Shown here one piece after another: positions 19,889-60,010 of a stretch of DNA of 64,000 nt (the first letter of the stretch is position 1; each line of letters begins with the position of its first letter). The stretch comes from SAR324 cluster bacterium (lineage in GTDB: Bacteria; SAR324; NAC60-12). The notes under the pieces are model-generated. The model had not been told where the DNA came from. It did no database searches and worked only from the letters and a program-made list of their open reading frames with translations. Where the stretch lies: the NCBI GenBank assembly GCA_014382365.1, contig JACNJW010000039.1:62001-126000 (forward strand), given 5' to 3'. Made by a program: the position numbers and the translations under genes.

Positions 19889-20659
19889 ATGTTTAAAATT
19901 CGTTTAATTACGTCTTCAGGACTCCTTGTTTTTGCACTTATACTATTTTATCTGAATCCATTTTTTAGCGGACAGACAGCAAGTGCAACAAAAGTATCTG
20001 ATGCTGCAGCTAATACTGCTGAAGATAATACCGAAAGTGCAGACGAGACCAAGATTGTCGAAGAAGAAACTGAAAGCGAAAGCGACGATAGTGATGAAGA
20101 AGACGGAGATTCTTCAGATGTGGTTTTTGAAAAACTACTATCCTACGAAAAATATGCGCCAAAATTCAGCATAAAACCTAGGAAGGAAGCAGAACTGGAA
20201 AATTTTCCCTGCATGGATTGTCACGAAGATGAAGAGACTAATTATAATATTCGTCTTCTGGAAGAAGATCATGAAGATTATAAGTTAGAACATGGTGCAG
20301 AAAGATTCTGGTGTTTGACATGTCACCAGGCAGATAATCGGGATTATTTGCGCTCATTAAAAAATAACGCCATTGATTTTGATCAATCGTACCGTCTATG
20401 CGGGCAATGTCATTTTCAGCGACAAAAAGACTGGTTTTTTGGTGCACATGGAAAACGTATTGGTAACTGGTCAGGTGAACGCAAACTTTATCTTTGTACA
20501 GAATGTCATGATCCTCACTCGCCGAGTATAAAACCTCTAAAACCGAACCCGCCTCCTAAAGTTAGAAAAGGTCTTGTTTTTGTGCCAAACGGAACTCACA
20601 TCAAAAAGAAAGTCTGGCAGAAATATTTGATGGATCAAACTGGTGAAAAACATGACTGA
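19889..20659 (+). CDS. Membrane-anchored tetraheme cytochrome c
   Basis: A 256-residue protein: N-terminal signal/anchor helix (GLLVFALILFYLNPFF), an acidic linker of about 50 residues rich in Glu, Asp and Ser, then four heme sites CMDCH, CLTCH, CGQCH and CTECH. It overlaps the next gene by eight bases. Together with the Fe-S protein and NrfD subunit that follow, it forms a quinol/cytochrome c oxidoreductase module; the heme protein would face the periplasm and exchange electrons with NirS or other carriers. Acidic linkers like this recur in cytochromes at 48909 and 56039. Confidence 0.8.
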   Translation: MFKIRLITSSGLLVFALILFYLNPFFSGQTASATKVSDAAANTAEDNTESADETKIVEEETESESDDSDEEDGDSSDVVFEKLLSYEKYAPKFSIKPRKEAELENFPCMDCHEDEETNYNIRLLEEDHEDYKLEHGAERFWCLTCHQADNRDYLRSLKNNAIDFDQSYRLCGQCHFQRQKDWFFGAHGKRIGNWSGERKLYLCTECHDPHSPSIKPLKPNPPPKVRKGLVFVPNGTHIKKKVWQKYLMDQTGEKHD

Positions 20660-21599
20660 AAACTTAAAAAATAACAGTAATCAAGTTTCCCGACGCAGCC
20701 TGTTGAAAAAAATCGGTGTGCTCGGTACAACCGGTGCTGCAGCGGCAACCGGAGTCACTCTGGCAGCGCAGGTTGTGGAAAAAAGTGGGCAGGAATTTTC
20801 GGACTCGCTGGATTCGTTTTTTCAAAAGCACTACCGTCGCATGAGTCCGGAAGAAGTTCAAGTTACTATCGCCCGCCTGCAGCGCAAAGCAAAACGCAAA
20901 TATAATAAAGATATCAGCATTGATACCGCACCGCCGCTTCCGGTGACACTATTCGGTTATGCACTAAATATTTCCAAGTGCAAGGGTTACCGCAAATGCG
21001 TTGATGCCTGTGTGGAGGAAAATAATCAGGGCCGTGACACACAAATTCAATTCATCCGTGTTTTGGAAATGGAGCGCGGGAGCATGAATTTAGAAGAATC
21101 GAATCATTATTATGATCCGGAAACAGTTCCGCAAAAGGGTAAATTCTACCTGCCTGTGCAGTGTATGCAGTGCGAAAATCCACCTTGTGTCAGAGCTTGT
21201 CCTGTCAAGGCCACCTGGAAGGAAGATGATGGAGTAGTAGTCATTGATTATGACTGGTGCATCGGCTGTCGTTACTGCATGACAGCCTGTCCGTACTGGG
21301 CACGTCATTTCAACTGGAACGAACCGCATGTACCTCCGGAAGAATTGAATCCGGTTACACATTATTTGGGTAACCGTCCGCGTTCAAAAGGTGTGATGGA
21401 AAAATGCATGTTTTGTGTCCAGCGAACCCGTAAAGGTAAACAGCCGGCATGCATGGAAGCCTGTCCTACTGGAGCGCGTATTTTTGGAAACTTACTTGAT
21501 CCGGAAAGTGAAATACGTTATATCCTTGAAAATAAAACAGTATTTCGCTTAAAGGAAGATTTAGGGACTGAACCCAAATTCTGGTATTTTACAGACTAA
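20652..21599 (+). CDS. Tat-exported [4Fe-4S] protein of the second NrfD complex
   Basis: A 315-residue protein with a Tat signal (SRRSLLKK) and four cysteine groups. The first reads CKGYRKCVDAC, so Tyr stands where the second Cys is normal; the others are complete: CMQCENPPCVRAC, CIGCRYCMTAC and CMFCVQRTRKGKQPACMEAC. The first cluster may therefore have unusual ligation or be a [3Fe-4S] cluster. The ATG at 20652 is chosen; a GTG at 20643 would add three residues. It transfers electrons between the NrfD subunit and the tetraheme cytochrome. Confidence 0.85.
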   Translation: MTENLKNNSNQVSRRSLLKKIGVLGTTGAAAATGVTLAAQVVEKSGQEFSDSLDSFFQKHYRRMSPEEVQVTIARLQRKAKRKYNKDISIDTAPPLPVTLFGYALNISKCKGYRKCVDACVEENNQGRDTQIQFIRVLEMERGSMNLEESNHYYDPETVPQKGKFYLPVQCMQCENPPCVRACPVKATWKEDDGVVVIDYDWCIGCRYCMTACPYWARHFNWNEPHVPPEELNPVTHYLGNRPRSKGVMEKCMFCVQRTRKGKQPACMEACPTGARIFGNLLDPESEIRYILENKTVFRLKEDLGTEPKFWYFTD

Positions 21600-21603
21600 G
21601 ACT

Positions 21604-22818
21604 ATGAAAGCAACGTTCTCATTTTGGCTGGACTTCATCCGTGAAGCTTTTCGCGGCGGAAAATTATTTTATTTGTGGATGACACTCCTGACAGTCGTAG
21701 TGTTTTTAGGTTTTGCTGCTTACATTCGTCAGTTTCAGCATGGCTTGATAGTTTCCGGAATGAGTGACCAGGTTTCCTGGGGTGTCTATATTTCCAATTT
21801 CACCTTTCTGGTTGGTGTGGCTGCAGCAGCTGTGATGCTGGTTATTCCGTCTTATATTTTTCGAGATGAAATGATAAAAGAGGTTGTTCTACTGGCAGAA
21901 GGTTTGGCAGTAGCAGCCTGTATTATGTGTATCCTTTTTGTCACAGTAGATCTAGGAAGACCGGATCGAATCTGGCACATGTTGCCCTTTGTTGGAGAAT
22001 TTAATTTTCCACAATCCTTATTAGCCTGGGATGTTTTTGTGCTTACGGGCTATCTGTTTCTCAGTTTAACAATTCCATATTATATCCTGTTTGTCCGTTA
22101 CAAAGGCGGGGAACCAAAGCACAACGTGTATTTTCCCGGTGTGCTTATTTCAATTGGCTGGGCTATTTCAATCCATACGGTAACAGCGTTTTTGCTCTCT
22201 TCGAACGTTGCCCGTCCGTTTTGGCATACAGCTATTTTGGGTCCCCGCTTTCTGGCCTCAGCCTTTTCTGCGGGACCGGCATTTTTTTTACTGACACTAA
22301 AATTTATCCGGCGCTACACGGATTATCCGGTTTCAGAAAAGATTTTTCAGCGCATTGCAATTATTGCAACTGTGGCCCTGCAGATAAATTTGTTTTTGCT
22401 TTTTGCAGAAATTTTTACTGAGTTTTATCACCAGACGGATCACACGGCGTCTGCCTTATATTTGTTTTTTGGCATTGGCGGAAAAACGGCTCTAGTACCC
22501 TGGATTTGGAGTGCAATTACAATGAATGTGGTGGCAGTGCTGATCCTCAGTATTGAACCTTTACGAAATAATAGTCGTCTACTGAGTGTCGCCTGTGTCC
22601 TGATGGTTGTAGGTGTCTGGATTGAAAAAGGAATGGGCCTCATAATTCCCGGATTTATTCCAACTCCGCTCGGAGAAGTTTTTGAGTATTCTCCTACACT
22701 GATTGAAGTCACTGTTTCTGCCGGAATTTGGGCAGTCGGATTGATTATTTATACTTTACTGGCCAAAGCTGCGATTGCAATTGAACTTGGCAAAGTGCGT
22801 TACAAAAAATTACCCTGA
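21604..22818 (+). CDS. NrfD/PsrC-type membrane quinol subunit of the second complex
   Basis: A 404-residue polytopic protein with about ten helices and the NrfD family region VDLGRPDRIWHML. It starts four bases after the Fe-S gene. A conserved charged or polar pattern inside the helices (for example FTEFYHQTDH) may line a quinol or proton path. Its partner set and position just before nirS suggest it links the quinone pool to periplasmic carriers. Confidence 0.85.
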   Translation: MKATFSFWLDFIREAFRGGKLFYLWMTLLTVVVFLGFAAYIRQFQHGLIVSGMSDQVSWGVYISNFTFLVGVAAAAVMLVIPSYIFRDEMIKEVVLLAEGLAVAACIMCILFVTVDLGRPDRIWHMLPFVGEFNFPQSLLAWDVFVLTGYLFLSLTIPYYILFVRYKGGEPKHNVYFPGVLISIGWAISIHTVTAFLLSSNVARPFWHTAILGPRFLASAFSAGPAFFLLTLKFIRRYTDYPVSEKIFQRIAIIATVALQINLFLLFAEIFTEFYHQTDHTASALYLFFGIGGKTALVPWIWSAITMNVVAVLILSIEPLRNNSRLLSVACVLMVVGVWIEKGMGLIIPGFIPTPLGEVFEYSPTLIEVTVSAGIWAVGLIIYTLLAKAAIAIELGKVRYKKLP

Positions 22819-23587: not shown

Positions 23588-25201
23588 ATGAAGAATCATA
23601 CAATTTGGAAATGGACAGCAGTCGCAGCTGGGGCAATGTTGTTCTTGGGTACACAAGCATGGGCAGCAAAACAGGCACCCCAACTGAGTGAAAAAGATTT
23701 TAAACGCGGCATACAGATTTATTTTGATCGCTGTGCCGGATGTCATGGAACGCTGAGGAAAGGTGCAACCGGACCAAAAATCACTCAGAAAAAAATGCTC
23801 AAGAAGAGCTTGGAGGAACTTGAAGAAGTCATTTATCATGGTACGAAAGCCGGAATGCCAGGTTGGGGCCGTACAGGAGAAATGAATGAGAAAGATACCA
23901 AACTCATGGCCAAGTTCATTCAGCACAAGGCTCCAATACCTCCAGAATATGGTTTACGGGCGATGCTGAAAACGCATAAAGTCATTGTGCAGCCAAATGA
24001 CAGGCCTTCAGCACCTCAACATAGTCGGGATATCGACAATATGTTTGGTGTGATTTTGCGTGATGTAGGCAAAGGTGCAGTCATTGACGGTGACACTCAT
24101 GAGGTAATTGAAAAAGTTAAAACCGGATTTGCAGTGCATATCTTCCGGGCATCCGCCAGTGGACGATATTTCTACACTGTTGGACGTGATGGAAAAATTA
24201 CCATGATTGATCTCTTTGAAAAGAAACCGAAAGTGGTTGCTGAGGTTAAAGTTTGTGCTGATGCACGTTCCATTGATGTTTCAAAATATAATGGTCCCAA
24301 AGGAAATTTTACTGACAAGTTGGCAATAGTTGGCTGTTATTGGCCTCCGCAATTGGTGGTAGTTGACGGAATGACTTTGAAACCTATCAAAATTATTTCA
24401 ACTCGCTCTCATACTTATGATACCAACGAGTACCATCCGGAACCACGTGTAGCTGCAATTGTGGCTTCACATGCCGACTCAGAGTGGGTTATTGCAATTA
24501 AAGAAACCGGTCTGATTTGGCTGGTAGATTATGCCGATTTGAAAAACCTGAAAATCACTGAAATTGAAGCAGAACGATTTCTGCATGATGGTGGTTGGGA
24601 TGCTTCAAAACGTTACTTTATTGTAGCCGCAAATATGCGTGATACAATCGTAGTGGTTGATACTAAATTAAAGAAATTGGCTGCGAAGTTTGAAACTGGT
24701 GTTAAACCACATCCGGGACGCGGTGCAAACTGGATAGATCCTGAATACGGTAAGGTTTCTGCGACCACTCACCTGGGTGAAGGTAAAATCACAGTTTTTG
24801 GTTCTGATCCTGAAGGACGGCCAGACGTTGCCTGGAAGGTTGTTCGTGAAGGCTCAACAGCCGGTCCTGGATTGTTCCTGAAAACTCATCCAAACAGTGA
24901 GAACATCTGGACGGATAGTACCCTTGCCAAAGAAGAAGGTGCGAACAAGAAAATATGTGTTTACAAAAAAGCTAATTTTGGCAAAGAACCTTTCAAATGC
25001 TGGAAAGCCACAGAACACGGAAAAATCGTCCACTTTGAATACAATAAAGCTGGAACTCAGGTTTGGGCTTCGGTTTGGGACAAGCAGGGTGAACTCATCA
25101 TTTATGATGATAAAACTCTGAAGGTCATCAAACGTATCAAAGGTTTACACACTCCCACAGGTAAGTGGAATGTGTACAATACTGTAAACGATATTTTCTA
25201 A
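23588..25201 (+). CDS. nirS: Cytochrome cd1 nitrite reductase
   Basis: A 537-residue periplasmic enzyme reducing nitrite to nitric oxide. After the signal peptide (ending GTQAWA) there is a cytochrome c domain with C49-x2-C52-H53, then an eight-bladed heme d1 propeller. Landmarks of NirS are present: AVHIFR (predicted heme d1 axial His), GRDGKITMIDL, YWPPQ, EYHPEPRVAAI, AERFLHDGG, HPGRGANW, TTHLGEG and the C-terminal TPTGKWNVYNT; the two His-containing segments EYHPEP and TTHLG probably hold the catalytic pair. Length is as expected. Small cytochromes c surround it. No complete heme d1 gene set is nearby; a NirJ/AhbD-like enzyme lies 32 kb away at 57686. Confidence 0.95.
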   Translation: MKNHTIWKWTAVAAGAMLFLGTQAWAAKQAPQLSEKDFKRGIQIYFDRCAGCHGTLRKGATGPKITQKKMLKKSLEELEEVIYHGTKAGMPGWGRTGEMNEKDTKLMAKFIQHKAPIPPEYGLRAMLKTHKVIVQPNDRPSAPQHSRDIDNMFGVILRDVGKGAVIDGDTHEVIEKVKTGFAVHIFRASASGRYFYTVGRDGKITMIDLFEKKPKVVAEVKVCADARSIDVSKYNGPKGNFTDKLAIVGCYWPPQLVVVDGMTLKPIKIISTRSHTYDTNEYHPEPRVAAIVASHADSEWVIAIKETGLIWLVDYADLKNLKITEIEAERFLHDGGWDASKRYFIVAANMRDTIVVVDTKLKKLAAKFETGVKPHPGRGANWIDPEYGKVSATTHLGEGKITVFGSDPEGRPDVAWKVVREGSTAGPGLFLKTHPNSENIWTDSTLAKEEGANKKICVYKKANFGKEPFKCWKATEHGKIVHFEYNKAGTQVWASVWDKQGELIIYDDKTLKVIKRIKGLHTPTGKWNVYNTVNDIF

Positions 25202-26689: not shown

Positions 26690-27256
26690 ATGAGTGTTTT
26701 TATTCCTGAAAGAAATTGGTGGGCTCAGCCTTTGGGTAAGGATGAGAAATTATGGCTCAAAGTATGTGTGCTGACAGCAATTATTCTTTTTTTAATGATG
26801 CCCCTTTACAATTTGATGGGGCATCAAAATCCCAGTCATGAAGGTTACAAAGTTACTCCGGAGAAATTCAATCAATTAACGGAAGATTTTGTTGCAAAAA
26901 ACAAAGTGCGTGATGAGGTGGTTAAACAAAGGTTTGGTACTACCGAAGTCGAAATGAAAATACCGGTCGTGCATCCTGGACCGGGAGTCAAGGATATTTA
27001 TTTGCGTGCCAGAGCATGGGAATTTTATCCAATACTGGAACTGGAAGAAGGACGGGAGTATCGTGTACACATGTCTTCAATGGATTACCAGCACGGCTTT
27101 TCATTACAACCGCAAAATATTAATTTCCAGATCCTTTCCGGATACGACCTTGTTGTCACCATGACACCTCGTGAAACCGGAGAATTTTATGTCATCTGCA
27201 ACGAATATTGCGCACTGGGGCATCACACTATGATAGGAAAAATCATTGTTAAATAG
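26690..27256 (+). CDS. CuA-binding subunit II of a B-family heme-copper enzyme
   Basis: A 188-residue protein with one N-terminal helix (VCVLTAIILFLMMPLYNLM) and a periplasmic cupredoxin domain. The CuA site is complete at the C-terminus: C170-x-E172-x-C174-x3-H178-x2-M181, with the upstream His in DYQHGFS. Single-helix subunit II is typical of ba3-like B-family enzymes. It accepts electrons from a periplasmic cytochrome c or cupredoxin and passes them to subunit I encoded next. AAGGAGAAAA stands before the ATG. Confidence 0.9.
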   Translation: MSVFIPERNWWAQPLGKDEKLWLKVCVLTAIILFLMMPLYNLMGHQNPSHEGYKVTPEKFNQLTEDFVAKNKVRDEVVKQRFGTTEVEMKIPVVHPGPGVKDIYLRARAWEFYPILELEEGREYRVHMSSMDYQHGFSLQPQNINFQILSGYDLVVTMTPRETGEFYVICNEYCALGHHTMIGKIIVK

Positions 27257-27265
27257 AGGAAATAA

Positions 27266-28855
27266 ATGGCTGATACATACTCAAATCAATTCAGAACCTG
27301 TGAAACCACAGGCCTAAAGGTCTACTTGCCGGGGGAACGGCTGTTTTATGTGCATGCCGTTACTGCAGTAGTGGCATTGTTGACGGGTGGAATCATGGCA
27401 ATTTTGATCGCTTTAACACGTTGGCCGGCAGTTCATTTGTTGCCGGCGGATTTATTTTATCGATTTATCACTGCTCACGGCATTAACATGTTGGTTTTCT
27501 GGATTGTATTTTTTGAAATGGCAGGGCTTATTTTTGCTTCAACCGCTGTTTTAGGTAGCCGCCTGCCTGCAGTCTGGTTCGGATGGCTGAATTATGCGTT
27601 GATGCTGGTGGGAGCACTGCTCACAAATTATATGATTTTTACAGGTCAGGCGGATGTGATGTTTACTTCATATCCTCCTTTAAAAGCGAATCCGAACTAT
27701 TATCTGGGTATCATTCTTTTTGCGGTTGGTACTTTACTGGCCTGTTTTCATTTTATGGCTACCTTGGTAGTCGCAAAAAAAGAAGGCTATCACAAAGGTA
27801 GTTATCCGCTTTTCACCTTTGGTATTTTGATCGCTGTGATCCTGGCGATTTTCACTTTGCTGGCGGGTGCGGCTACATATATTCCAACCTGGCTCTGGGC
27901 AATGGGCTTTATTGACTCAATTGATCCGTCACTTTATCGCTTAGGATTCTGGGGTTTCGGACATTCAGCCCAACAAATCAATCTTGCAGCCATGGTTTCA
28001 ATCTGGTATTTGATTGGTACTTTGAGTGTTGGAGCTGTACCATTAAATGAAAAATTCAGCCGTGCTGCTTTCTTGTTGTACTTACTGGGTATCAACGTGG
28101 CATCGGTTCATCACTTGCTTGTGGATCCAGGGCTGAGTGCTTCATTCAGAATTTTCAATGCCAGTTATGTGATTTATGCCGCAACCATCGGAAGTATGAT
28201 TCATGCTTTCTCCATTCCAGCTGCTATTGAAGTGGCTCAGCGTGCCAAAGGATACACCAACGGACTTTTTGAGTGGTTGACAAAAGCTCCCTGGAGTAAC
28301 CCTGCATTTTCGGGAATGGCGCTTTCCATCGTGATTTTTGGTTTCGGTGGCGGTGTAACAGGTGTGACGCAAGGTGTGGAGCAGATCAATATCATGTCTC
28401 ACAACACGCTTAGGATTCCTGGGCACTTTCATGTAACAGTGGTTGGTGGAACTTCCCTGGCTTTTATGGCATTGACTTATTACGCATTGCCCTTAATCAT
28501 GAGGAGAAAACTGATAGGAGAGACCTGGGCTAAGTATCAACCCTGGCTATTCGGAATCGGTATTTCAATTTTTGCGACAGGTATGTCTTTTGCGGGAATT
28601 CTTGGAGTTCCACGCAGACATTATGATGTCACTTTCTCTTCCGCTATTTTCCAGGTACCTTTTAGCGCAACGGCAACGACCATGTTGGGCTTGTTAGGCA
28701 TCGGAGCGATAATTGCCTTTATCGGTTTAATGATATTTTGTTTGATTGCGGCACTTACAGCATTTTTCGGTGAACGGATTGAACCCAAAATGGAACCACA
28801 CTATCCGCCATATTTGAAAGACGGAGAAGTAGAAGTGTCAGCAGTGGCTGGTTAA
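27266..28855 (+). CDS. Heme-copper catalytic subunit I, B-family, lacking the cross-link Tyr (probable NO reductase)
   Basis: A 529-residue protein of about 13 helices resembling ba3-type subunit I (for example VPRRHYD and VHHLLVDPG). Metal ligands are seen: H71 (low-spin heme), H233, H282-H283 (CuB position), H387 and H389 (hemes). The helix VI motif is GHSAQQ instead of GHPxVY, so Gln237 replaces the active-site Tyr needed for O2 reduction. Loss of this Tyr is a hallmark of NO reductases evolved from oxygen reductases (eNOR- and bNOR-like groups). The downstream position to nirS supports NO reduction to N2O; assignment to one named group cannot be made by eye. Confidence 0.8.
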   Translation: MADTYSNQFRTCETTGLKVYLPGERLFYVHAVTAVVALLTGGIMAILIALTRWPAVHLLPADLFYRFITAHGINMLVFWIVFFEMAGLIFASTAVLGSRLPAVWFGWLNYALMLVGALLTNYMIFTGQADVMFTSYPPLKANPNYYLGIILFAVGTLLACFHFMATLVVAKKEGYHKGSYPLFTFGILIAVILAIFTLLAGAATYIPTWLWAMGFIDSIDPSLYRLGFWGFGHSAQQINLAAMVSIWYLIGTLSVGAVPLNEKFSRAAFLLYLLGINVASVHHLLVDPGLSASFRIFNASYVIYAATIGSMIHAFSIPAAIEVAQRAKGYTNGLFEWLTKAPWSNPAFSGMALSIVIFGFGGGVTGVTQGVEQINIMSHNTLRIPGHFHVTVVGGTSLAFMALTYYALPLIMRRKLIGETWAKYQPWLFGIGISIFATGMSFAGILGVPRRHYDVTFSSAIFQVPFSATATTMLGLLGIGAIIAFIGLMIFCLIAALTAFFGERIEPKMEPHYPPYLKDGEVEVSAVAG

Positions 28856-29202: not shown

Positions 29203-29538
29203 ATGTTTTCAAAACACCTGATCATTTACGGACTGCTTTTGCTGCTGATATTTGCACTTCTGGGCAGTGGAAGTTACGCTGTATTTTATGAAGAACTCGT
29301 TGTACGCTGGACAGGAGAAGGGATCATCAATTGGGAGCGTATTGCGGCAATCTGTGGGTGGGCAGGAAGTCCTGATCCGGGGGAAAGTTTGTGGGGCTAT
29401 CGCATTCGCAGCACCTGGAACATGATTTCTGCACAAATGGGGATGACTGCGGTCTACGTAGGAATGATGATCTTGTTCTATTTTCTGGTGCGTCTGGTCT
29501 TTTGGTGTACAGAAAAACGAACAAATAACCCTTCATGA
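29203..29538 (+). CDS. Small membrane protein before the cytochrome b fusion
   Basis: A 111-residue protein with two helices (HLIIYGLLLLLIFALLGSG and MGMTAVYVGMMILFYFLV) and a short periplasmic loop containing ICGWAGSPDPGE. The ATG at 29203 is chosen because it opens on the first helix; ribosome site weak. It overlaps the next gene by four bases (ATGA), so the products probably work together. No family recognised. Confidence 0.6.
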   Translation: MFSKHLIIYGLLLLLIFALLGSGSYAVFYEELVVRWTGEGIINWERIAAICGWAGSPDPGESLWGYRIRSTWNMISAQMGMTAVYVGMMILFYFLVRLVFWCTEKRTNNPS

Positions 29539-31703
29539 TAGTTCTCAAGAAACACTCCAGCGGAGTTCAGGGAGTTTATGAGCAATGGCATCGTCTCTGG
29601 TCCAGACTTTTTATGGGAGTCGAAGCGCATTGGAACCGTGTGTTTGGTGAGCAGAATAATCCTCTGTATTTTTTGGGAGGTCTGACTATTTTTAATCTGC
29701 TGGTTCTTACTGTGACCGGCATTTACATGTTCATCTATTATTCGCCTAATGTTGAAACAGTCTATGAGTCGGTACGTTACGTAAATAATGAAGCATTTTT
29801 AGGCGAACTCACGCGCAGTGTTCATCAGTATTCTTCAGATTTGATGATTGTACTGATTGTCTTACACATGATTCGTGTTTTTGTTCAGGACAAATACCGC
29901 AAATACCGTTGGATTGCCTGGGTCTCTGGTTTAGTGATGCTCTTTTCAACTTTAATTGAGGGTGTCACGGGACACATCATGAGCTGGAATTCCCGTTCGC
30001 AGTTTGTAGTGATGGAAAGCTCCAGGTTGCTGGCAGAGTTAAAAGTTTTCGGACAGGACCTCCCGCGTGCTTTTGCTTCAGAAGCCTTGTTGAGTACGTG
30101 GATCATGTGGATTTTGCTGGCCATTCACATTCTCATTCCAATAGCTTTTATTTTTCTGCTTTACATTCACTTCTCACGTATTACCCGTCCCAAAATGTTG
30201 CCGCCTAGACCCTTGATATACGGGACTTTGGTTTTTCTGGTTGGATACAGCCTGCTCTTTCCCGTACAACTGCTCCAAAAAGCAGATTTGATGAGGCTGC
30301 CTTTAATAGAGGAAGTTGACTGGTTTTATTTGTTTTTTATCCCTTTACTTCCGGAAACGTCTCCTGCGGTTATCTTAAGTGGAACAGCCTTGCTGATGTC
30401 CTTTTTATTTGCTGCACCTTGGTATCGCAAAAAATTAACGGTGGATGTTGCTGACCGCGAATTATCATCCTGCACCGGCTGCGCGGCGTGTGCTAAAGAC
30501 TGTCCATATGAAGCGATTTACGTGCGTCCCCGAACGGACGGACAAAAATATAAAATGGAATCGGTTATTATTCCGGATCGCTGTGCAGGTTGCGGAATTT
30601 GTGTTGGATCATGTAATTTTGGAGGAATGAACCTCACCGACCTCAGGCTGACTACAATAGAAAGCCGTATGAAAGCTCTGCTCGCAAGAACTGATTCAAG
30701 ACAACCTGCTCCTTATCTGGGAGTATTTTGTGAAAACACTTTGACTGATACTGTTCATTTTGATTTAAGCAAGCAAACTTTGAGAGAAGATTCCCGGCTG
30801 TCCGTGTTTTCAGTACCCTGCGCCGGCTTAGTCGGTCCAGCCTTCATCAAAAAAGCTGTCCAAATGGGTGCAGAAGGCGTAGTCATTGCCGCTTGTCGTT
30901 TGCGGGATTGTCATTATCGTGAAGGCAATATTTGGCTGAAAGAACGTTTGAAAGCCAAACGTGTGCCAAAAATAAGGCTAAAAGACACCTCAAAACCTGT
31001 CGCGGTATTCTCCTTTAACAGCAGTGAAAGCCGGGACTTTGTCAGCACTGTTTCTCAACAACTTGATGAATGGGAAAAAAATATAAATTCACCTGCATCG
31101 AGAGGTCAATTTATCGCTTTGCGTTCAGGAAAACGCTGGGTATCCGCTGCAGCGCTAGTTCTCGTTTCCGGATTATTTCTTGTAGGGTTTTCGTGGGGTG
31201 TACTGGATCCATGGGCAAATTATAATCCTCCACCAACTGCACTTTTGAGGGTTAATTTTTTTCATCTAAGTGAACAGGTTTCATGTGATTTAAATAATTT
31301 GGAAGGTAGTGTAGCCAAAATACGTAACAAAATTGATGATGTAACTCGTGGAGACAACATTCCTATAGAAGGCAGGCAACAACAAATTTCCACCAATCTT
31401 GTTTCCTCTATGCTGTGTCCACGTGAAAGGGTGCCAGTACGTTTGAAATTGACAATGGATGATACTTTGTTGCTGGAAAAAGAATTTGTTCCTGCAGGTT
31501 TCAGCAATGACGGGCTGACTTATGTCAATCACGAACTTTATGTGTACCCTGGAAAACACAGCTTAGCCCTTAACATTGTTGACTCTTTAAAAGAGGAGCG
31601 TCAATCCGGGATTGATTTTATGACAGAAGTCGTCCTGAAAGACAGGCAAGTTCTGTTTATTGATTTCGATGACAAACTTGGACAATTTTATATTCGAAAA
31701 TAG
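29535..31703 (+). CDS. Fusion of cytochrome b, two [4Fe-4S] clusters and an MvhD-like domain
   Basis: A 722-residue protein. Residues 1-300 are a cytochrome b (bc1/b6 type) with two heme pairs, H97-x13-H111 and H198-x13-H212. Residues 313-360 carry two ferredoxin motifs (C313, C316, C319, C323 and C350, C353, C356, C360). Residues about 390-505 resemble the MvhD/FrhD-type hydrogenase iron-sulfur subunit: VPCAGLVGPAFIKKA and ACRLRDCHYREGN. A further membrane helix (about 545-562) leads to a C-terminal domain of 160 residues with no known match. The cytochrome b part probably oxidises quinol; the cytoplasmic Fe-S part suggests coupling to a soluble electron carrier. It begins inside the stop of the preceding gene. 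Confidence 0.8.
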   Translation: MIVLKKHSSGVQGVYEQWHRLWSRLFMGVEAHWNRVFGEQNNPLYFLGGLTIFNLLVLTVTGIYMFIYYSPNVETVYESVRYVNNEAFLGELTRSVHQYSSDLMIVLIVLHMIRVFVQDKYRKYRWIAWVSGLVMLFSTLIEGVTGHIMSWNSRSQFVVMESSRLLAELKVFGQDLPRAFASEALLSTWIMWILLAIHILIPIAFIFLLYIHFSRITRPKMLPPRPLIYGTLVFLVGYSLLFPVQLLQKADLMRLPLIEEVDWFYLFFIPLLPETSPAVILSGTALLMSFLFAAPWYRKKLTVDVADRELSSCTGCAACAKDCPYEAIYVRPRTDGQKYKMESVIIPDRCAGCGICVGSCNFGGMNLTDLRLTTIESRMKALLARTDSRQPAPYLGVFCENTLTDTVHFDLSKQTLREDSRLSVFSVPCAGLVGPAFIKKAVQMGAEGVVIAACRLRDCHYREGNIWLKERLKAKRVPKIRLKDTSKPVAVFSFNSSESRDFVSTVSQQLDEWEKNINSPASRGQFIALRSGKRWVSAAALVLVSGLFLVGFSWGVLDPWANYNPPPTALLRVNFFHLSEQVSCDLNNLEGSVAKIRNKIDDVTRGDNIPIEGRQQQISTNLVSSMLCPRERVPVRLKLTMDDTLLLEKEFVPAGFSNDGLTYVNHELYVYPGKHSLALNIVDSLKEERQSGIDFMTEVVLKDRQVLFIDFDDKLGQFYIRK

Positions 31704-31819: not shown

Positions 31820-32518
31820 ATGAAGGCATTTGTAATTCCACATTTTGAACTACCAAAAAATTCAGGCTTTTGGTGGAAACTTTCAATATTTTTTGGAGCA
31901 GCAATCTTGTTTGCACTGGTGGTGCACTGGATACGGCAGGCACCTCCTACTGCAGCCAGTTCAGGATGGGCGTACCAACAAGTTGAAATGCTGGATCAGG
32001 CAGGAGACTTGTATCATGCGCTTGAGTTTTTACCGAATGCACTGGCGGAGGCTTCAAGTAAACAGGCCGCAGAAGATTTTCTTAAAGCAGTTGAGACTCG
32101 TAAAAAACAAGCTCCATCAGCTTCAACTCAAATTGTAAGTCAACTTCAAACTACAGAACTAAAATTTATTATTCCACGCCTCCTGTTTAACAAGGGCGTG
32201 ATTGCGGATTTGATGCAGGATAATCTTGACGCAATCCGTTGGTACAAAGCCGCGCTTGAGAAAAAACCTGGGATGTCGATTGCCTATGTGCGCCTCGCCC
32301 TGGTGCATGAACGTATGGGTGAACTGGAAAAAGCGGAAGGATATTTTCTCAAAGCTTTAAGTATCCAAAGCCGTGCACCTTTGACCCATTTTCATTATGG
32401 TATGTTTCTGACACGCACAGCGGTTCGGCCGCAGGATGCATTGAAGGAAGCACAATTTTTAGAGAAAGTTCGTCCGGCTTACAGTCGGATGATTATCGAA
32501 CAAATCAAAGGAGAATAA
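31820..32518 (+). CDS. Membrane-anchored TPR protein
   Basis: A 232-residue protein with one N-terminal helix (WWKLSIFFGAAILFALVVHW) and tetratricopeptide repeats, clearest at about residues 130-200 (NKGVIADLMQDNLDAIRWYKAAL, then AYVRLALVHERMGELEKAEGYF). TPR proteins of this layout often assist assembly of respiratory complexes. It is followed at four bases by a small membrane protein and then by a Sco gene, which fits a role in maturing the heme-copper enzyme. Confidence 0.7.
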   Translation: MKAFVIPHFELPKNSGFWWKLSIFFGAAILFALVVHWIRQAPPTAASSGWAYQQVEMLDQAGDLYHALEFLPNALAEASSKQAAEDFLKAVETRKKQAPSASTQIVSQLQTTELKFIIPRLLFNKGVIADLMQDNLDAIRWYKAALEKKPGMSIAYVRLALVHERMGELEKAEGYFLKALSIQSRAPLTHFHYGMFLTRTAVRPQDALKEAQFLEKVRPAYSRMIIEQIKGE

Positions 32519-32521
32519 AGT

Positions 32522-32713
32522 ATGAATTTTTCAAAAAAATACATGATGTTTTGGTGCGCAATTATACTGGCCGCTGTACTGACAGATGTATTTGATGTCT
32601 TTGCTAAACTTGAAATTGACGGTAACTCATTCGTTTACGGATTACTGATTGGTTTTGTAATTATGAAATTTGCGCCCACGGTCAGGGACTCAGAGGATAA
32701 GGAAAAAAACTAA
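32522..32713 (+). CDS. Small two-helix membrane protein
   Basis: A 63-residue protein with two hydrophobic helices (MMFWCAIILAAVLTDVFDVF and VYGLLIGFVIMKF) and a charged C-terminus. The start follows GGAGAATAAAGT, and its stop shares one base with the Sco start. No family recognised; it is probably an accessory subunit or assembly factor. Confidence 0.6.
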   Translation: MNFSKKYMMFWCAIILAAVLTDVFDVFAKLEIDGNSFVYGLLIGFVIMKFAPTVRDSEDKEKN

Positions 32714-33363
32714 TGCGGCTTTTAATTATTCGTTCTCTCGCAATTGGACTGTTGAGCTGTATGCCGCTCTTTATCTGGTTGGGGTGGAAGGCGCAGCGGA
32801 GTTCAGAAACACCGCTCAATATTTCACCAGTTTCCGGAACGCGTTCACCGACAGCTCCTGTGCGCCAGTTGAATCTTTATGATGCGGCGGGAGAGTGGAC
32901 TGATCAAGATTCAAATCCTGTCAGCTTCAAACAATTCCGGGGTAAACCCGCGCTGGTGGGTTTTATTTACACCACCTGTGTTGATACGTGTTCGCTCTTA
33001 ACTTTACAGATGAAAGAAGTGGAAACCTGGATGCCTCAAGAATGGCAAGGTCGAGTCCAATTCCTTTCAGTGACAATAGATCCTGAACAGGATACTCCGG
33101 AAGTGTTGCGAAAATATGCAGCCCGTTTTGAGGCACTTTCAGCATCGTGGTCTTTCCTCACTGCATCTGAGGATACAATTGAAGCTTTGACCAGTCAGTT
33201 TTCCTTCTACTTCCGGAAGGAAGGCTCAGCTTATATACACTCCGATATGCTGGCGCTTGTTGATAAGAATGGCAAGCTGACTCATCAGTTCTGGGGTGGT
33301 TATTCTCCGGAAAAAGTAGTAGATGCACTAAAAATGAATTTAGCACAGGAAATCACGGATTAG
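32713..33363 (+). CDS. Sco/SenC copper-chaperone protein
   Basis: A 216-residue membrane-anchored thioredoxin-fold protein. The copper site is complete: CVDTC (CxxxC) in GFIYTTCVDTCS and the His in YIHSDMLALVD. The SVTIDPEQDTPEVLRKYA segment is diagnostic of the family. Sco proteins deliver copper to, or reduce, the CuA site, here the subunit at 26690. A Sco gene linked to a heme-copper NO reductase is also known for the sNOR loci of ammonia oxidisers. Confidence 0.9.
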   Translation: MRLLIIRSLAIGLLSCMPLFIWLGWKAQRSSETPLNISPVSGTRSPTAPVRQLNLYDAAGEWTDQDSNPVSFKQFRGKPALVGFIYTTCVDTCSLLTLQMKEVETWMPQEWQGRVQFLSVTIDPEQDTPEVLRKYAARFEALSASWSFLTASEDTIEALTSQFSFYFRKEGSAYIHSDMLALVDKNGKLTHQFWGGYSPEKVVDALKMNLAQEITD

Positions 33364-33439: not shown

Positions 33440-34267
33440 ATGACTTATTTACACTCAATTAAAGGCAAATTTATTCTGTTGATGTGTGCACTGGTAATTC
33501 TCATGTTACTGGCCATTAAGTTCTACTTTATTCCTAAAGTAGATCATTTTCTTGAATTATCAGTTGAGCATGAGATGAAGCGCAATATGCAGTCTTTTGA
33601 AAAAGTAATTCATACAGTTGCAGTAGCAGCAAATGGTGATAGAGACGTTGTACGTAATGCTTTGGAATCGATCAGCCGTGATCCTGAAATACCGGTTGTC
33701 TTTCGCAGGAGCAATTCAATCCACTTGCAATATGGCAGGTCAGCAGGGAAGAAAACGCAAAACTCAATTGAAGAGAAAGTCTTCCGAGACGAAGAAGCGA
33801 TTTTCATTAAGCAGCCAAATTCATTTGAATACATCTATCCCTTAAGAGCAATTGAAGTTTGCCAAACTTGCCACGTTGCAGAGAATGGAAAAGACAATGT
33901 AGCGCTGGGTTATGTCTTAGGTTTAGCTGTTATGAGCGTTCCACACAAAGTATTACGGGAAAATAAGTTGTTTTACTTTGTCAAAGACATTTTTGTCAAC
34001 AATCTATTCCTGATTGCACTGATGCTGTTAATTATTTTTTGGGGACTCTGGAGGTGGATTTTCAAACCTCTGGAATTGGTTTCAGCCAGGGTGCAGGATT
34101 TGACCGGCAGAGATGAAGAATATTACAATTTTGAAGTAGGTGCAGTTCAGCATGATGAAATCCGCACATTGAAATTACACATTGAGGAACTGATTAAGCA
34201 GAATGATTCCTCTGCTAGCGGAGATACTGAGAATAAAACTTCAGCTTCAGTCAAGGAGACTTTATGA
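33440..34267 (+). CDS. Heme c sensor-like membrane protein (DUF3365/Tll0287-like with HAMP)
   Basis: A 275-residue protein: N-terminal helix (FILLMCALVILMLLAIKFY), a periplasmic domain of about 150 residues with one heme site CQTCH, a second helix (NNLFLIALMLLIIFWGLW), and a HAMP-like cytoplasmic segment. The periplasmic part resembles the DUF3365 domain of heme c sensors. There is no kinase or cyclase output, so it may be an electron carrier or a partner subunit rather than a signalling protein. Its end overlaps the next gene by four bases. Confidence 0.7.
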   Translation: MTYLHSIKGKFILLMCALVILMLLAIKFYFIPKVDHFLELSVEHEMKRNMQSFEKVIHTVAVAANGDRDVVRNALESISRDPEIPVVFRRSNSIHLQYGRSAGKKTQNSIEEKVFRDEEAIFIKQPNSFEYIYPLRAIEVCQTCHVAENGKDNVALGYVLGLAVMSVPHKVLRENKLFYFVKDIFVNNLFLIALMLLIIFWGLWRWIFKPLELVSARVQDLTGRDEEYYNFEVGAVQHDEIRTLKLHIEELIKQNDSSASGDTENKTSASVKETL

Positions 34268-35658
34268 AAGCATTTCCCCGTTTAACAAGCCAGCAGGCTG
34301 AGTTAGGAAAAATCGTGCTGACTACTGCAGTTTTAACCATCGTTTTTGCTGAAATATACGCGCTCTTTGCCGCAGCTGCCAGAACTCCAGGGGTTTATCA
34401 ATGGTTGCCTGGATCGAATTTTTTCTATGTGGCTCTGGTGACTCATGTCAATTTGTCGATAGTAATTTGGTTTCTGGTATTTACGGGATTACTGGCCATG
34501 ATCTCTCAAGTAATCCTGAAACCTCTTTCCGGAATGGCACGCCTCAGCATCGGCACGGGAGTGGCCTTTGCCGCAAGTGGAATGACTTTGATCGTCCTTG
34601 CCCCATTTTTAGGAGCGGATTCTCCGATCATGGCTAATTATATTCCTGTACTGAATCATCCGCTCTTTTTTAGTGCTCTCGGTTTATTATTTTTCGGAAT
34701 CAGTGTAATGCTCAGTTTTGCGTTTTGGAAAAGTAATTCCAATCAAAGTGTAGACTGGCATGCAGAATTTGCTTACGGAATCAGAATGGCTGGGCTGACT
34801 TTTGGAGTAGCTATGTTTTGTTTCCTGCTGGCTTTCTGGAAACTTGAAGGCACTCCTGACACATTGCCTTATTTTGAAACATTTTTCTGGGGCGGTGGGC
34901 ACATTCTGCAATTTGTAAACACTCTGGCTATGCTTTCCTGCTGGATTTTACTCGCACATTTATCTTTAAAAAAATTACCATTATCTTCTTTTGTGCTTAA
35001 AGTTCTGTTGAGTAGTGTTTTCCTTTTTGCTCTGCCTGCACCGTTCTTTTATTTTTTCTATGGACCGCAGGAAGCGGAACTAATCGATGGTTTTACTTTT
35101 TTGATGCGCTGGGGACTTGGCCCGGCTACGATCCCAATTGGAGGTGTAATTGTCTGGAAACTTTTTAAACAACGCCGAAGCGTTGATTGGAAATCACCAT
35201 ACAGCACTTCTTTGCTCGCATCCATTTCTTTATTCGCATACGGTGGAATAATAGGCGCACTGATTGACCATAGTAATGTAAAAATTCCAGCCCATTATCA
35301 TGGTGTGATAGGCGCGGTTACATTGTCATTTATGGGAGCAAGTTACGCTCTCCTTCCTGCTTTAGGAAAAATCTGGAAAAAAAGCCGAATGATTTTTTGG
35401 CAACCGATTTTATGCGGAGGAGGTGGAGTGCTTTTTGTGACAGGCATGTATTGGGCGGGAACTCACGGAGTTGCACGTAAAGTCTCCGGAGCAGCACAGG
35501 GTCTGGATAATCTCGGCAAAATGATAGGTATGTCTTTGATGGGACTTGGAGGATTGGTTACTTTGTTCGGTGTGGTCGCCTTTGTTGCCGTTGTTTTGAG
35601 AGCACTTTATCCGAAAACCGTTCCGCTCAAACTGACAAATTTAGTGCTTAGAAAATAG
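34264..35658 (+). CDS. Heme-copper subunit I homologue lacking the CuB histidine pair
   Basis: A 464-residue protein with about 12 helices. Heme ligands of the superfamily are kept: H61 in THVNLS, H344 and H346 in PAHYH. Helix VI has H213 in GGGHILQF, but the position of the usual His pair reads DGFTFLMRWGLGP (about residues 275-286) with no His. The site could therefore bind hemes but not a standard CuB or FeB. It resembles NorB/cbb3-like short subunits rather than the B-family protein at 27266. It begins inside the stop of the heme c protein, suggesting the two form a complex. Role unknown; NO binding, electron transfer or sensing are possible. Confidence 0.7.
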   Translation: MKAFPRLTSQQAELGKIVLTTAVLTIVFAEIYALFAAAARTPGVYQWLPGSNFFYVALVTHVNLSIVIWFLVFTGLLAMISQVILKPLSGMARLSIGTGVAFAASGMTLIVLAPFLGADSPIMANYIPVLNHPLFFSALGLLFFGISVMLSFAFWKSNSNQSVDWHAEFAYGIRMAGLTFGVAMFCFLLAFWKLEGTPDTLPYFETFFWGGGHILQFVNTLAMLSCWILLAHLSLKKLPLSSFVLKVLLSSVFLFALPAPFFYFFYGPQEAELIDGFTFLMRWGLGPATIPIGGVIVWKLFKQRRSVDWKSPYSTSLLASISLFAYGGIIGALIDHSNVKIPAHYHGVIGAVTLSFMGASYALLPALGKIWKKSRMIFWQPILCGGGGVLFVTGMYWAGTHGVARKVSGAAQGLDNLGKMIGMSLMGLGGLVTLFGVVAFVAVVLRALYPKTVPLKLTNLVLRK

Positions 35659-41714: not shown

Positions 41715-42275
41715 ATGAAAAAAACAGAAAGCGAAGGGAAAGCAACAGTGAAGCAAAGTGGTTGTGCTCTCTCAAGACGAAAATTTTTATTTTACAGCGG
41801 AACTGCACTGACGACAAGTACAGTTCTGCTGCAGATTCCTGGTGTTTTAAAAGCAAGGGAAGCACATGTGGCCACTTATCCCAGAAAGTTGATTGGCAAG
41901 ATGAGCCAGTTAAAACTCGATCAACCAGTGAATTTTAATTATCCGGATGATGGACTAAACGCCACCAGTGTTCTAGTCAAACTGGGACAGAAAGCTGGAG
42001 GAGGAGTAGGAAAACAACAGGATGTTGTGGCTTTCAATACTATTTGTACTCACCAGGGCGGACCACTGCTGGGCAGTTATAACAAAGAATATAAAACTCT
42101 TGGCCAATGTCCTTTTCATCTGACCACTTACGATTTGACACGCTACGGTATTATTGTTTCCGGACAGGCTTATCAAAGTTTGCCGCAAGTGTTGCTGGAA
42201 GTAAAAGGAGACAGTATTTACGCAGTTGGCGTGATGGGACTGATCTTTGGCAGAAATAACAATTTGATTGGATAA
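41715..42275 (+). CDS. idrB: Rieske [2Fe-2S] subunit of an AioB/IdrB-type enzyme
   Basis: A 186-residue protein with a Tat signal (SRRKFLFYSGTAL) and a Rieske site: CTH in TICTHQGGPL and CPFH in GQCPFHLTTYD. The extra disulfide cysteines of many Rieske proteins are missing (CTHQGG, not CTHxGC; CPFH, not CPCH). It would pass electrons between the molybdopterin subunit and periplasmic cytochromes. Order Rieske-then-catalytic is that of aio/idr operons for this pair. ATG preceded by AAAGGAGAATT. Confidence 0.85.
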   Translation: MKKTESEGKATVKQSGCALSRRKFLFYSGTALTTSTVLLQIPGVLKAREAHVATYPRKLIGKMSQLKLDQPVNFNYPDDGLNATSVLVKLGQKAGGGVGKQQDVVAFNTICTHQGGPLLGSYNKEYKTLGQCPFHLTTYDLTRYGIIVSGQAYQSLPQVLLEVKGDSIYAVGVMGLIFGRNNNLIG

Positions 42276-42287
42276 AAGGAGATAAAC

Positions 42288-44954
42288 ATGTCTACACCCT
42301 ATTACACACCAACTGATAAAGTACCTTTGCCTCCCCGTAATGCAGAAGTACTGACTACTGCCTGTGATTACTGCATTGTTGCCTGTGGTTATAAAGTCTA
42401 CCGCTGGCCGCTTGGTCAGGAAGGTGGGCACGAAGCCGCTAAGAATGCTTTTGGTAAGGATTTTCCTGTAGCAACTCTTCAGGAATGGATTGCCCCAAAC
42501 CAACACAACATTGTAATGCACAAGGGACGGCAGCACCATGTCGTAATCTTACCGGATAAGCAAACTAAGTTCGTCAATTTGTATGGTGATTCTTCGGTTC
42601 GCGGAGGAACGATTGCACAGAAATGCTACAATCCTGCGACTCCTACCAAAGATCGGCTGAAAACTCCGTTGATACGAATATATGATACGCTGATGCCTGT
42701 TACGTGGGACATGGCATTGGATGTGGCTGCAGAAGTAGGAAAGCATGTGATTGCCAAACATGGTGCGAATGCCTACTCGGTTAAGACTTTTTCGTATCAA
42801 TATATCGAAAACACTTATGCGATTACCAAGTATGCAAGACGGCATATTAATACTGCCGCATTTACCTGGCATGACACTCCATCTGATGTGACTTCAACTC
42901 CGGGCTTCCGTGATGCAGGCTTTGATAATTTTGGTGCAGCTTACAAAGATTGGGCTGATGCGGAAGTATTGATGATCTGCGGAACAGATCCTTACGAAAC
43001 TAAATCAATTCTTTTCACTCAGCATATTAAACCGGCAATTGAAGCAGGTCAAAAAGTGATTATGCTCAATCCACGTGAAACTGCTGGTGTCGCTTTTGCG
43101 AAAAAGATGGGCGGAATTCACATTGATCTCTATCCTGGGACAGATAATCTGGTCGTCAATGCCATGGCACGAATTATTGTCGAAAATGGCTGGGAGGATT
43201 CAGAGTGGATTAAAAAATGGGTCAACAACAAGTGGGAAACGGATTCCGGTTTTGGTCAGGGAACACGCAATACCCCCTGGCAGTGGCGTACTACCTGGGG
43301 TAAGTTCGAGTCTAAAGGTTTTGAAGATTGGAAAAAGTGGGTCATGGCACAACCGGAATATGAGTTGGAATATGCTGCTCGATTATCCGGGGTTGATCCT
43401 GCCAAAATACGAAAAGCAGCAGAATGGCTCTCCAAACCTGTCAACGGTAAGCGTCCGAAAACCTCGATCGGCATTGAAAAAGGATTTTACTGGTCAAATA
43501 ATACTGGCAACACGGAAGCTATCGGTGCTTTGGCGATTATCACAGGAACCGGTGGACGGCCTGGCCAAATGGTAGCACGTTTCGGCGGTCACCAGAGAGG
43601 TGGTACCGGTGGTGGTAAATACCCGCGTAATAAGTCACCGGAAAAAAGACCGGGAAGACGAAGGAGGGCACTGGATACCGATCGTTGGCTTTATTCAGAT
43701 CACACACGTTTTTCACATGTGATTGGTACGACTTGGCTGCAGTCAATGTGTGGTTCACAGGGACTGCAGAAAAAATTTCATGAACTGGTAACTGCAAATC
43801 CGCACCAGATTCGTTCTTTTGATAAAGCAGAAATCATTGAAACGCTGAAGAAACGTGCTGATTCCGGTGGTATGGTGGTTATAAATCAGGATATCTACCT
43901 GGTTGATCCAATTGGAGCAAAATTTGCGGACATTGTTTTTCCTGCTGCAACATGGGGTGAGGAAGATTTTGTCCGTGCTAACGGTGAACGCCGTTTGCGG
44001 CTCTACTCCAAGTTCTATGATGCACCGGGAGAGGCTAAACCGGACTGGTGGATAATCAGTCGGCTTGCACAGCGAATGGGTTTCGACGGTTTTGACTGGG
44101 AAAACTCAAATGATGTTTTTGAGGAATCCTGTCGCTTTTCACGAGGCAACCGCAAGGATTATAATATGATCAAGGTTGATGCACGTGCCAAAGGAATTAC
44201 TGCTCACGAACGCCTGCGACAGTTTGGTACTGATGGTATTCAGGGACCGGTGTTTCGAGTTAACGGAGAACTGGTTGGAACAACCCGTCTGCATGATACG
44301 CAGAAGGAACTTCCGGAAACCGGGCCGATGGGTGCAAATATGTTCAACAAAAAGCTGACTCACTTTAATTCGCAAACGGGGAAGAATAACATTATGAAGT
44401 CTCCGTGGAGCCTTTTTTCAGATTTCTGGGAATGGCTCTCACCAAAAGGTGATGAATTATGGGTGACCAACGGTCGCATCAACGAAATTTGGCAGTCAGG
44501 TTTCGACGATGTTGAAAGGCGTCCCTATATAACTCAACGCTGGCCGGAAAACTATTGCGAAATTCATCCGGACGATGCCAGAAGGCGTGGAATTAAATCC
44601 GGAGATCGGGTCATGGTCTATTCGGAACGAGTAGCGGAGCAAAAGGAAACTATTCTTGGAGTTAAGGGTGATGATTTTCAATTTTCCTCATTAATGGATA
44701 GAGGTCAAATTGAGCTCAGTAAAGGTGCGGTGACAGCAATTGCAATGGTGACACCTGCTATTAAAAAAGGAGTTTTATTTATGAATTTCCTTGATAAACG
44801 TCAACCGTCTAATGCCATTCAAGCAAGAGTGGTAGATCAAATTAGCGGAAACTACAATTATAAGATGGGAGTCGGAAAGATCGTTCGACTTGGAGGCTCA
44901 GCTTACCAGAGAGATCAACATTCCTTCTCGTTTGCACCTCGCAACATCGTATAA
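42288..44954 (+). CDS. idrA: AioA-family molybdopterin catalytic subunit, probable iodate reductase
   Basis: An 888-residue protein with the AioA/IdrA iron-sulfur motif C26-x2-C29-x3-C33 and a Ser (S103, in SSVRGG) near the fourth-ligand position, indicating a [3Fe-4S] cluster. Segments NQDIYLVDPIGAKFADIVFP, NGERRLRLYSKFYDAPGEAK and PAATWGEEDF match AioA-family folds. No signal peptide is present; it would be exported with its Tat-bearing Rieske partner. The two peroxidase genes upstream favour iodate reductase (IO3- to iodide or hypoiodous acid) over arsenite oxidase, which lacks such partners. The order here, P-P-B-A, differs from the described A-B-P1-P2. Confidence 0.75.
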   Translation: MSTPYYTPTDKVPLPPRNAEVLTTACDYCIVACGYKVYRWPLGQEGGHEAAKNAFGKDFPVATLQEWIAPNQHNIVMHKGRQHHVVILPDKQTKFVNLYGDSSVRGGTIAQKCYNPATPTKDRLKTPLIRIYDTLMPVTWDMALDVAAEVGKHVIAKHGANAYSVKTFSYQYIENTYAITKYARRHINTAAFTWHDTPSDVTSTPGFRDAGFDNFGAAYKDWADAEVLMICGTDPYETKSILFTQHIKPAIEAGQKVIMLNPRETAGVAFAKKMGGIHIDLYPGTDNLVVNAMARIIVENGWEDSEWIKKWVNNKWETDSGFGQGTRNTPWQWRTTWGKFESKGFEDWKKWVMAQPEYELEYAARLSGVDPAKIRKAAEWLSKPVNGKRPKTSIGIEKGFYWSNNTGNTEAIGALAIITGTGGRPGQMVARFGGHQRGGTGGGKYPRNKSPEKRPGRRRRALDTDRWLYSDHTRFSHVIGTTWLQSMCGSQGLQKKFHELVTANPHQIRSFDKAEIIETLKKRADSGGMVVINQDIYLVDPIGAKFADIVFPAATWGEEDFVRANGERRLRLYSKFYDAPGEAKPDWWIISRLAQRMGFDGFDWENSNDVFEESCRFSRGNRKDYNMIKVDARAKGITAHERLRQFGTDGIQGPVFRVNGELVGTTRLHDTQKELPETGPMGANMFNKKLTHFNSQTGKNNIMKSPWSLFSDFWEWLSPKGDELWVTNGRINEIWQSGFDDVERRPYITQRWPENYCEIHPDDARRRGIKSGDRVMVYSERVAEQKETILGVKGDDFQFSSLMDRGQIELSKGAVTAIAMVTPAIKKGVLFMNFLDKRQPSNAIQARVVDQISGNYNYKMGVGKIVRLGGSAYQRDQHSFSFAPRNIV

Positions 44955-48893: not shown

Positions 48894-48908
48894 ACTGTAA
48901 TTAATAAA

Positions 48909-50953: not shown

Positions 50954-50978
50954 TGCAAAGCAGAAAGATAACAAAAAT

Positions 50979-52592: not shown

Positions 52593-52612
52593 TCATAGTT
52601 CAATAAAATACT

Positions 52613-55167: not shown

Positions 55168-55179
55168 ACTGTTCAAACA

Positions 55180-55941: not shown

Positions 55942-56038
55942 TTTAGTATTTGTGCCCATGGATCATTCGAATAAAAACGGAAAAAATCCGAACAACCATC
56001 GAAAATTTGTGACTGATTATAGATTTATTGGTTTTTTT

Positions 56039-57640: not shown

Positions 57641-57685
57641 CTCTTAAATCTTGCAGTTGCAGGTTTGATTGAGTCAGGAGGAGCG

Positions 57686-59931: not shown

Positions 59932-60010
59932 AGCTCCTGATATTCATTCAGCAAATATTAGTTTAACGAAAAACGGATCTGATTCTTGATCAATTCATAA
60001 AAAACAAACT

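Follow-up and report, generated by a model that had tools for sequence, protein, structure and literature searches.

A Rieske-less cytochrome b with a built-in iron-sulfur/MvhD-like module accompanies putative eNOR-type nitric oxide reductases in SAR324 and other bacteria

The 722-amino-acid product of one open reading frame in the window (the whole 64,000-nucleotide stretch of SAR324 cluster DNA analysed here) is a real and widespread respiratory membrane protein, in which an iron-sulfur module is built into the cytoplasmic side of a cytochrome b. The gene for this cytochrome b/2x[4Fe-4S]/MvhD-like fusion is tightly linked to eNOR. On balance, we consider it probable that the fusion is a Rieske-independent bc-type cytochrome b, which would serve eNOR respiration as its dedicated electron conduit across the membrane.

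Three regions of the fusion were recognised by Pfam above the gathering cut-off: Cytochrome_B (PF00033, residues 43-216, 2e-22), Fer4_7 (residues 312-363, 1.9e-8) and FlpD/MvhD (PF02662, residues 413-508, 2.7e-14). A profile search also matched MvhD chains at about 1e-17. Together with the conservation of the heme and cluster ligands, these matches bear out the original prediction that a two-heme cytochrome b, a ferredoxin and an MvhD-like domain share one polypeptide; the MvhD-like character of the middle region is confirmed by PF02662 and by its conserved cluster cysteines. The same frame is open in relatives G003, G018, G022 and G026 and in Spirochaetota. Identity to the fusion is 56-94% in four relatives, one of which sits on a 489-kb contig, and about 30% across many phyla. 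An assembly artefact was ruled out since the same fusion occurs in many genomes. The AF2 model of the full chain, calculated as polypeptide without cofactors, scored well (pLDDT 89.4, pTM 0.88).

Table 1 Features of the fusion and its neighbours, in positions of the window.
Feature	Position	Strand	Basis
eNOR subunit II, one helix and CuA domain, motif CNEYCALGHHTM	26690..27256	+	CoxB model 1.9e-7
eNOR subunit I, putative heme-copper NO reductase, GHSAQQ in helix VI	27266..28855	+	PF00115 1.2e-65; Gln motif
111-aa two-helix protein	29203..29538	+	Conserved neighbour in SAR324 and Spirochaetota
Cytochrome b/2x[4Fe-4S]/MvhD-like fusion, 722 aa	29535..31703	+	
Cytochrome b helices A-D (residues 43-216), H97/H198 and H111/H212	29661..30182	+	PF00033 2e-22; invariant in 74
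Helices E-F (residues 225-297), Qo-type motif D262-W263-F264	30207..30425	+	Profile alignment to subunit IV
Two-[4Fe-4S] ferredoxin domain (residues 306-367), after helix F, n-side	30450..30635	+	Fer4_7; 8 Cys; model topology
MvhD/FlpD-like domain (residues 393-514), Cys 399, 429, 454, 459	30711..31076	+	PF02662; HdrA2 model
Last transmembrane helix (residues 534-557), helix G position	31134..31205	+	Structural alignment
C-terminal p-side beta-sandwich domain; own gene in other lineages	31230..31700	+	
Membrane-anchored TPR protein	31820..32518	+	Conserved order
SCO1/SenC-like protein	32713..33363	+	Conserved in eNOR loci
Membrane protein, one CxxCH heme c motif	33440..34267	+	Conserved order

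Few respiratory proteins have been studied as thoroughly as cytochrome b, whose expected partner is a Rieske protein. In an alignment of 74 sequences, H97, H111, H198 and H212 were invariant, as the ligands of two bis-histidine b hemes in helices B and D. The region after helix D aligned by profile with b6f subunit IV and the C-terminal half of cytochrome b, and D262-W263-F264 fell on the E-W-Y of the PEWY motif of subunit IV. This Qo-type motif reads Asp-Trp-Phe/Tyr across the relatives (Asp in 71 of 74), such that the acid is kept and the proline is not. Cysteine was not among the common residues at the position that carries the heme-ci cysteine in b6. The model aligned with cytochrome b over about 260 residues (VIA Z 20-23; Foldseek E 2e-8), with residues 26-565 placed onto residues 23 to about 345 of mitochondrial chains. 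With residues 306-514 soluble, only the helix at 534-557 can correspond to helix G in this alignment, and the iron-sulfur module is thus inserted between helices F and G. In the topology of cytochrome b the F-G loop lies on the n-side, which places the iron-sulfur module on the n-side and the C-terminal domain on the p-side.

In the model, the fusion is a predicted bc-type cytochrome b of six helices, with a helix-G equivalent after the inserted module. Two b hemes span the membrane, the Qo-type motif lies at the p-side, and the n-side F-G loop houses two [4Fe-4S] clusters that form a chain with an MvhD-type cluster. A quinone may bind at the p-side site, as this one motif suggests. The fold, the four heme ligands, the helix glycines, the Qo-type motif and the helix order A-G are all shared with the cytochrome b of bc1 and b6f complexes (b6 plus subunit IV in the latter). 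Unlike these, the fusion has no Rieske partner in its locus and no heme-ci cysteine, carries the iron-sulfur/MvhD module in its F-G loop and extends beyond helix G into a p-side beta-sandwich.

This C-terminal extension had been described as an unknown domain behind another helix; both elements are present in the model, where they now read as helix G and a periplasmic domain. The part was modelled as a helix followed by a beta-sandwich, and no conserved metal ligands or invariant Cys/His were found in the domain in the alignment of relatives. A cupredoxin or other redox domain was considered and rejected, as no clear fold match was obtained (best Foldseek E 0.014; best VIA Z 8.9, to generic beta-sandwiches). 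The protein is split in other families of the order, as well as in Magnetococcales and several Proteobacteria: it stops after the MvhD domain, and one helix with the C-terminal domain is encoded by the gene that follows. The small protein thus supplies helix G, which supports a shared complex. In three Melainabacteria loci (L108:7902-11256, L097 and L068), Rieske and cytochrome b genes adjoin a cytochrome b-ferredoxin gene and MvhD is a separate gene, an arrangement that may represent an intermediate stage in how the fusion evolved.

All eight ferredoxin cysteines were invariant in the 74-sequence alignment, although in the first ferredoxin motif part of this conservation was built in, as the scan for relatives used the pattern Cx[KLQ]DCPY[EGN]A. 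In the MvhD domain, C399, C429 and C454 were invariant and C459 was present in 70 of 74 sequences. The second cysteine of the CxxC of free MvhD is absent from the fusion; its four conserved MvhD cysteines are those of QmoB from its own genome. The NCBIfam HdrA2 model matched residues 310-513 as a single stretch (3.3e-26). This points to the ferredoxin-MvhD half of HdrA2/QmoB rather than a chance joining of a ferredoxin to a free MvhD, and as judged by sequence the soluble module is closest to that C-terminal half and not to free MvhD. Both have two [4Fe-4S] clusters followed by MvhD with its four cysteines; the fusion differs in having cytochrome b in place of the FAD domain and no Hdr or Qmo partner genes nearby.

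The gene at 27266-28855 encodes a protein with Gln where O2 reductases carry the cross-linked Tyr, and a CuA subunit lies upstream. The eNOR enzymes are defined as CuA-containing members of the heme-copper superfamily with Gln in place of the active-site (helix VI) Tyr (PMC8756737). By these motifs the gene product is an eNOR-type, putative NO reductase, in agreement with the heme-copper NO-reductase-like neighbour noted originally. This eNOR, with its cupredoxin subunit II directly upstream of subunit I, is the neighbour and likely partner of the fusion. In the literature covered, which does not extend to the chief publication on eNOR (Murali et al. 2024, PNAS), eNOR is described as having two subunits with no mention of a cytochrome b partner, and searches for a cytochrome b with MvhD found no description.

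Several other genes of the window were also inspected. The small protein between eNOR and the fusion, which gave no match in Pfam or NCBIfam, has a conserved CGWAG...RxxxNM loop and occurs in Spirochaetota clusters too. The SCO1/SenC-like protein had no family match itself; homologs in the same place match SCO1-SenC. A divergent COX1-superfamily protein at 34264-35658 (GGGHILQ in helix VI, HYHG in helix X) is probably not a normal oxidase because it is without the helix VII His-His pair of CuB ligands; its homologs occur in 24 of the 79 loci described below, and some keep the pair. A cytochrome cd1 (NirS-type) gene lies upstream of eNOR at 23588-25201, together with two small cytochromes c, and its product is the likely source of NO for eNOR. 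Positions 46932-57640 hold two tandem paralogous operons that look like a duplication; both encode several cytochromes c and, by eye, a cytochrome bd-like quinol oxidase subunit. A radical SAM protein lies at 57665-62428 with W..EA..RL..VP-repeat proteins (PCP_red-like by eye) joined to universal stress domains.

Scanning GTDB genomes gave 154 loci that encode relatives of the fusion, and 79 of these were kept. These come from SAR324, Spirochaetota, Nitrospinota, Nitrospirota, Rokubacteria, Pseudomonadota, Aquificota, Calditrichota, Gemmatimonadota, Bdellovibrionota, Planctomycetota, Chloroflexota and Melainabacteria; no viral relatives were found. One isolate, Thioalkalivibrio denitrificans ALJD, carries two copies. 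In the tree, SAR324 and Spirochaetota proteins cluster together, as do the Chloroflexota proteins with O2 reductases (one member is without a reductase in the DNA examined), and two paralogs of a lineage with NuoF form one clade. Neighbours were counted by tblastn because ORF calling missed genes in G+C-rich loci. An eNOR subunit I with the helix VI Gln was present in 44 of the 79 loci, with two further truncated copies. A B-family-like (ba3-like) O2 reductase with GHPLVY was found in eight loci, all from Chloroflexota, and a C-type enzyme together with a Rieske protein in three, from Melainabacteria. Other recurring neighbours were a CuA subunit (51 loci), SCO (47), CyoE (33), the divergent COX1-like protein (24) and NuoF (13). 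Where the full 8-kb upstream flank was available, 35 of 36 loci had a heme-copper reductase (27 eNOR, five B-family O2 reductases and three C-type enzymes). Equally, the fusion was found in 10 of the 52 genomes of the window's class and eNOR in exactly those 10, these genomes being related by descent and not 52 independent trials; in two of them (G035 and G039) the fusion and eNOR lie on different contigs.

No Rieske protein belongs to the fusion. In the window's genome (92% complete) the fusion is the one PF00033 protein, and the sole Rieske protein found adjoins an arsenite-oxidase-like enzyme: the Rieske gene and a large molybdopterin enzyme gene, arsenite-oxidase-like by eye, follow one another at 41715-44954. 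No Rieske gene lies close to the fusion gene among the loci, except in Melainabacteria (five loci). Among 30 other fusion-bearing genomes, eight have a single cytochrome b and the rest carry extra copies, canonical bc1 in many; two (G062 and G077) lack a Rieske gene. No bc-type cytochrome b other than the fusion occurs in the SAR324 and Spirochaetota genomes.

The proposed connection of the quinone pool to a carrier in the cytoplasm gained support from a NuoF-like NADH/FMN subunit, which lies beside the fusion in 13 loci of one lineage (Nitrospirota/Nitrospinota). The function of NuoF is well established. Pfam confirmed this neighbour (Complex1_51K, 1.1e-43), which in complete loci lies between two cytochrome b paralogs. 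In SAR324 neither a soluble partner gene nor a NuoF-like subunit adjoins the fusion; the window's genome has four NuoF/RnfC-like genes, all located elsewhere. In genome G000, two Rnf operons (RnfC, RnfD; loci L112 and L114 on contigs C22 and C67) make membrane ferredoxin-NAD exchange available twice. A precedent is found in Kuenenia, whose NAD(P)-linked Rieske/cytochrome b complexes (Kustd1480-1485, Kuste4569-4574) have an n-side NAD(P) oxidoreductase (PMC12954380). Both systems wire cytochrome b on the n-side to iron-sulfur clusters, with an NAD(P) module in Kuenenia. The Kuenenia complexes keep the Rieske protein, multiheme c subunits and an FAD-type NAD(P) oxidoreductase, whereas the fusion has no Rieske, carries its MvhD domain in the same chain and has NuoF in some lineages only. 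The NuoF neighbours and this anammox precedent point to NAD(H) as the carrier.

Under the conduit reading, a carrier in the cytoplasm would exchange electrons with the quinone pool or eNOR, along a route from MvhD through the two [4Fe-4S] clusters, heme bH and heme bL to the p-side quinone site. In Nitrospirota/Nitrospinota the carrier would probably be NAD(H), through the NuoF-like subunit. This reading draws on the invariant heme and cluster ligands, the structural match to cytochrome b, the Qo motif aligned with PEWY and the non-cysteine heme-ci position. It further draws on the NuoF-like neighbours, the heme-copper reductases in 35 of 36 loci, the co-occurrence with eNOR in 10 of 52 genomes and a window genome with no other bc-type cytochrome b and only an arsenite-oxidase-type Rieske. 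Our preferred direction, held with less than even confidence, is outward, from a reductant in the cytoplasm to the quinone pool and eNOR.

Canonical bifurcation at a Qo site requires a mobile, high-potential Rieske protein. Quinol oxidised on the p-side could nevertheless send one electron towards the high-potential eNOR side and the other, via the b hemes and the iron-sulfur module, to a low-potential cytoplasmic acceptor, with NO or O2 reduction driving reduction of NAD(P)+ or ferredoxin. Such a model has been proposed for the anammox NAD(P)-linked Rieske/cytochrome b complexes, which are the closest precedent in having an NAD(P) oxidoreductase on the n-side of a cytochrome b (PMC12954380). 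The retained acidic Qo-type motif, the constant pairing with a high-potential terminal reductase and the NuoF neighbours make it attractive, yet it is weakened because there is no Rieske to accept the first electron: none is encoded near the gene outside Melainabacteria, and G062 and G077 have none at all. We regard bifurcation as unlikely. The joint claim that a Rieske-free cytochrome b with eNOR or a ba3-type oxidase forms an undescribed class of respiratory complex, coupling NO/O2 reduction to NAD(P)+ or ferredoxin reduction by quinone-based bifurcation with a new high-potential branch, is quite unlikely.

We also considered a replacement of complex III, that is, a quinol:cytochrome c or quinol:CuA oxidoreductase feeding eNOR in which the iron-sulfur module is structural or regulatory. 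Consistent with this, SAR324 and Spirochaetota genomes have no second bc-type cytochrome b, and the gene mostly adjoins a CuA enzyme, with an O2 reductase swapped in by Chloroflexota. Many genomes, however, encode further cytochrome b proteins, often canonical bc1; a structural role would not call for the strict conservation seen in all the cluster cysteines; and the C-terminal domain has no conserved p-side heme c or metal ligand. It is therefore improbable.

The functions of MvhD and HdrA are established, and a bridge to HdrA had been suggested by the MvhD-like domain. In nine of ten fusion-bearing genomes tested, no HdrA match was found at E 1e-25; in the tenth the match was QmoA/QmoB, on another contig. 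The fusion was the sole MvhD protein in seven of ten genomes searched for MvhD. An HdrA bridge as its general role was rejected because HdrA is absent from these nine genomes. A Qmo/Hdr-like complex, with the MvhD domain docked on an HdrA-type flavoprotein and cytochrome b as membrane anchor, would suit a module closest to HdrA2/QmoB and the presence of Qmo in the window's genome, but is very improbable given the HdrA-type proteins missing from those nine genomes and a gene that accompanies eNOR and not qmo or hdr genes. The QmoABC-like genes of that genome are on contig C38, and the window itself encodes, at 20643-22818, a TAT Fe-S protein and an NrfD protein, the latter above the cut-off for DsrP (DsrMKJOP).

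The fusion represents a conserved form of cytochrome b in more than 10 phyla, with a Rieske-less locus and its own iron-sulfur chain to the cytoplasm. Its likely partner, eNOR, is an NO reductase that produces the greenhouse gas N2O and is still poorly understood. If electrons do flow between a carrier on the n-side and either the quinone pool or eNOR, as the sequence and the model suggest, this would link eNOR denitrification directly to the cytoplasmic redox pool, and an origin of cytochrome b complexes from membrane-anchored dehydrogenases would become testable on living examples. The pairing of the fusion with eNOR, or in some lineages with an O2-reducing enzyme, suggests a little-known connection between NO respiration and intracellular reducing power.
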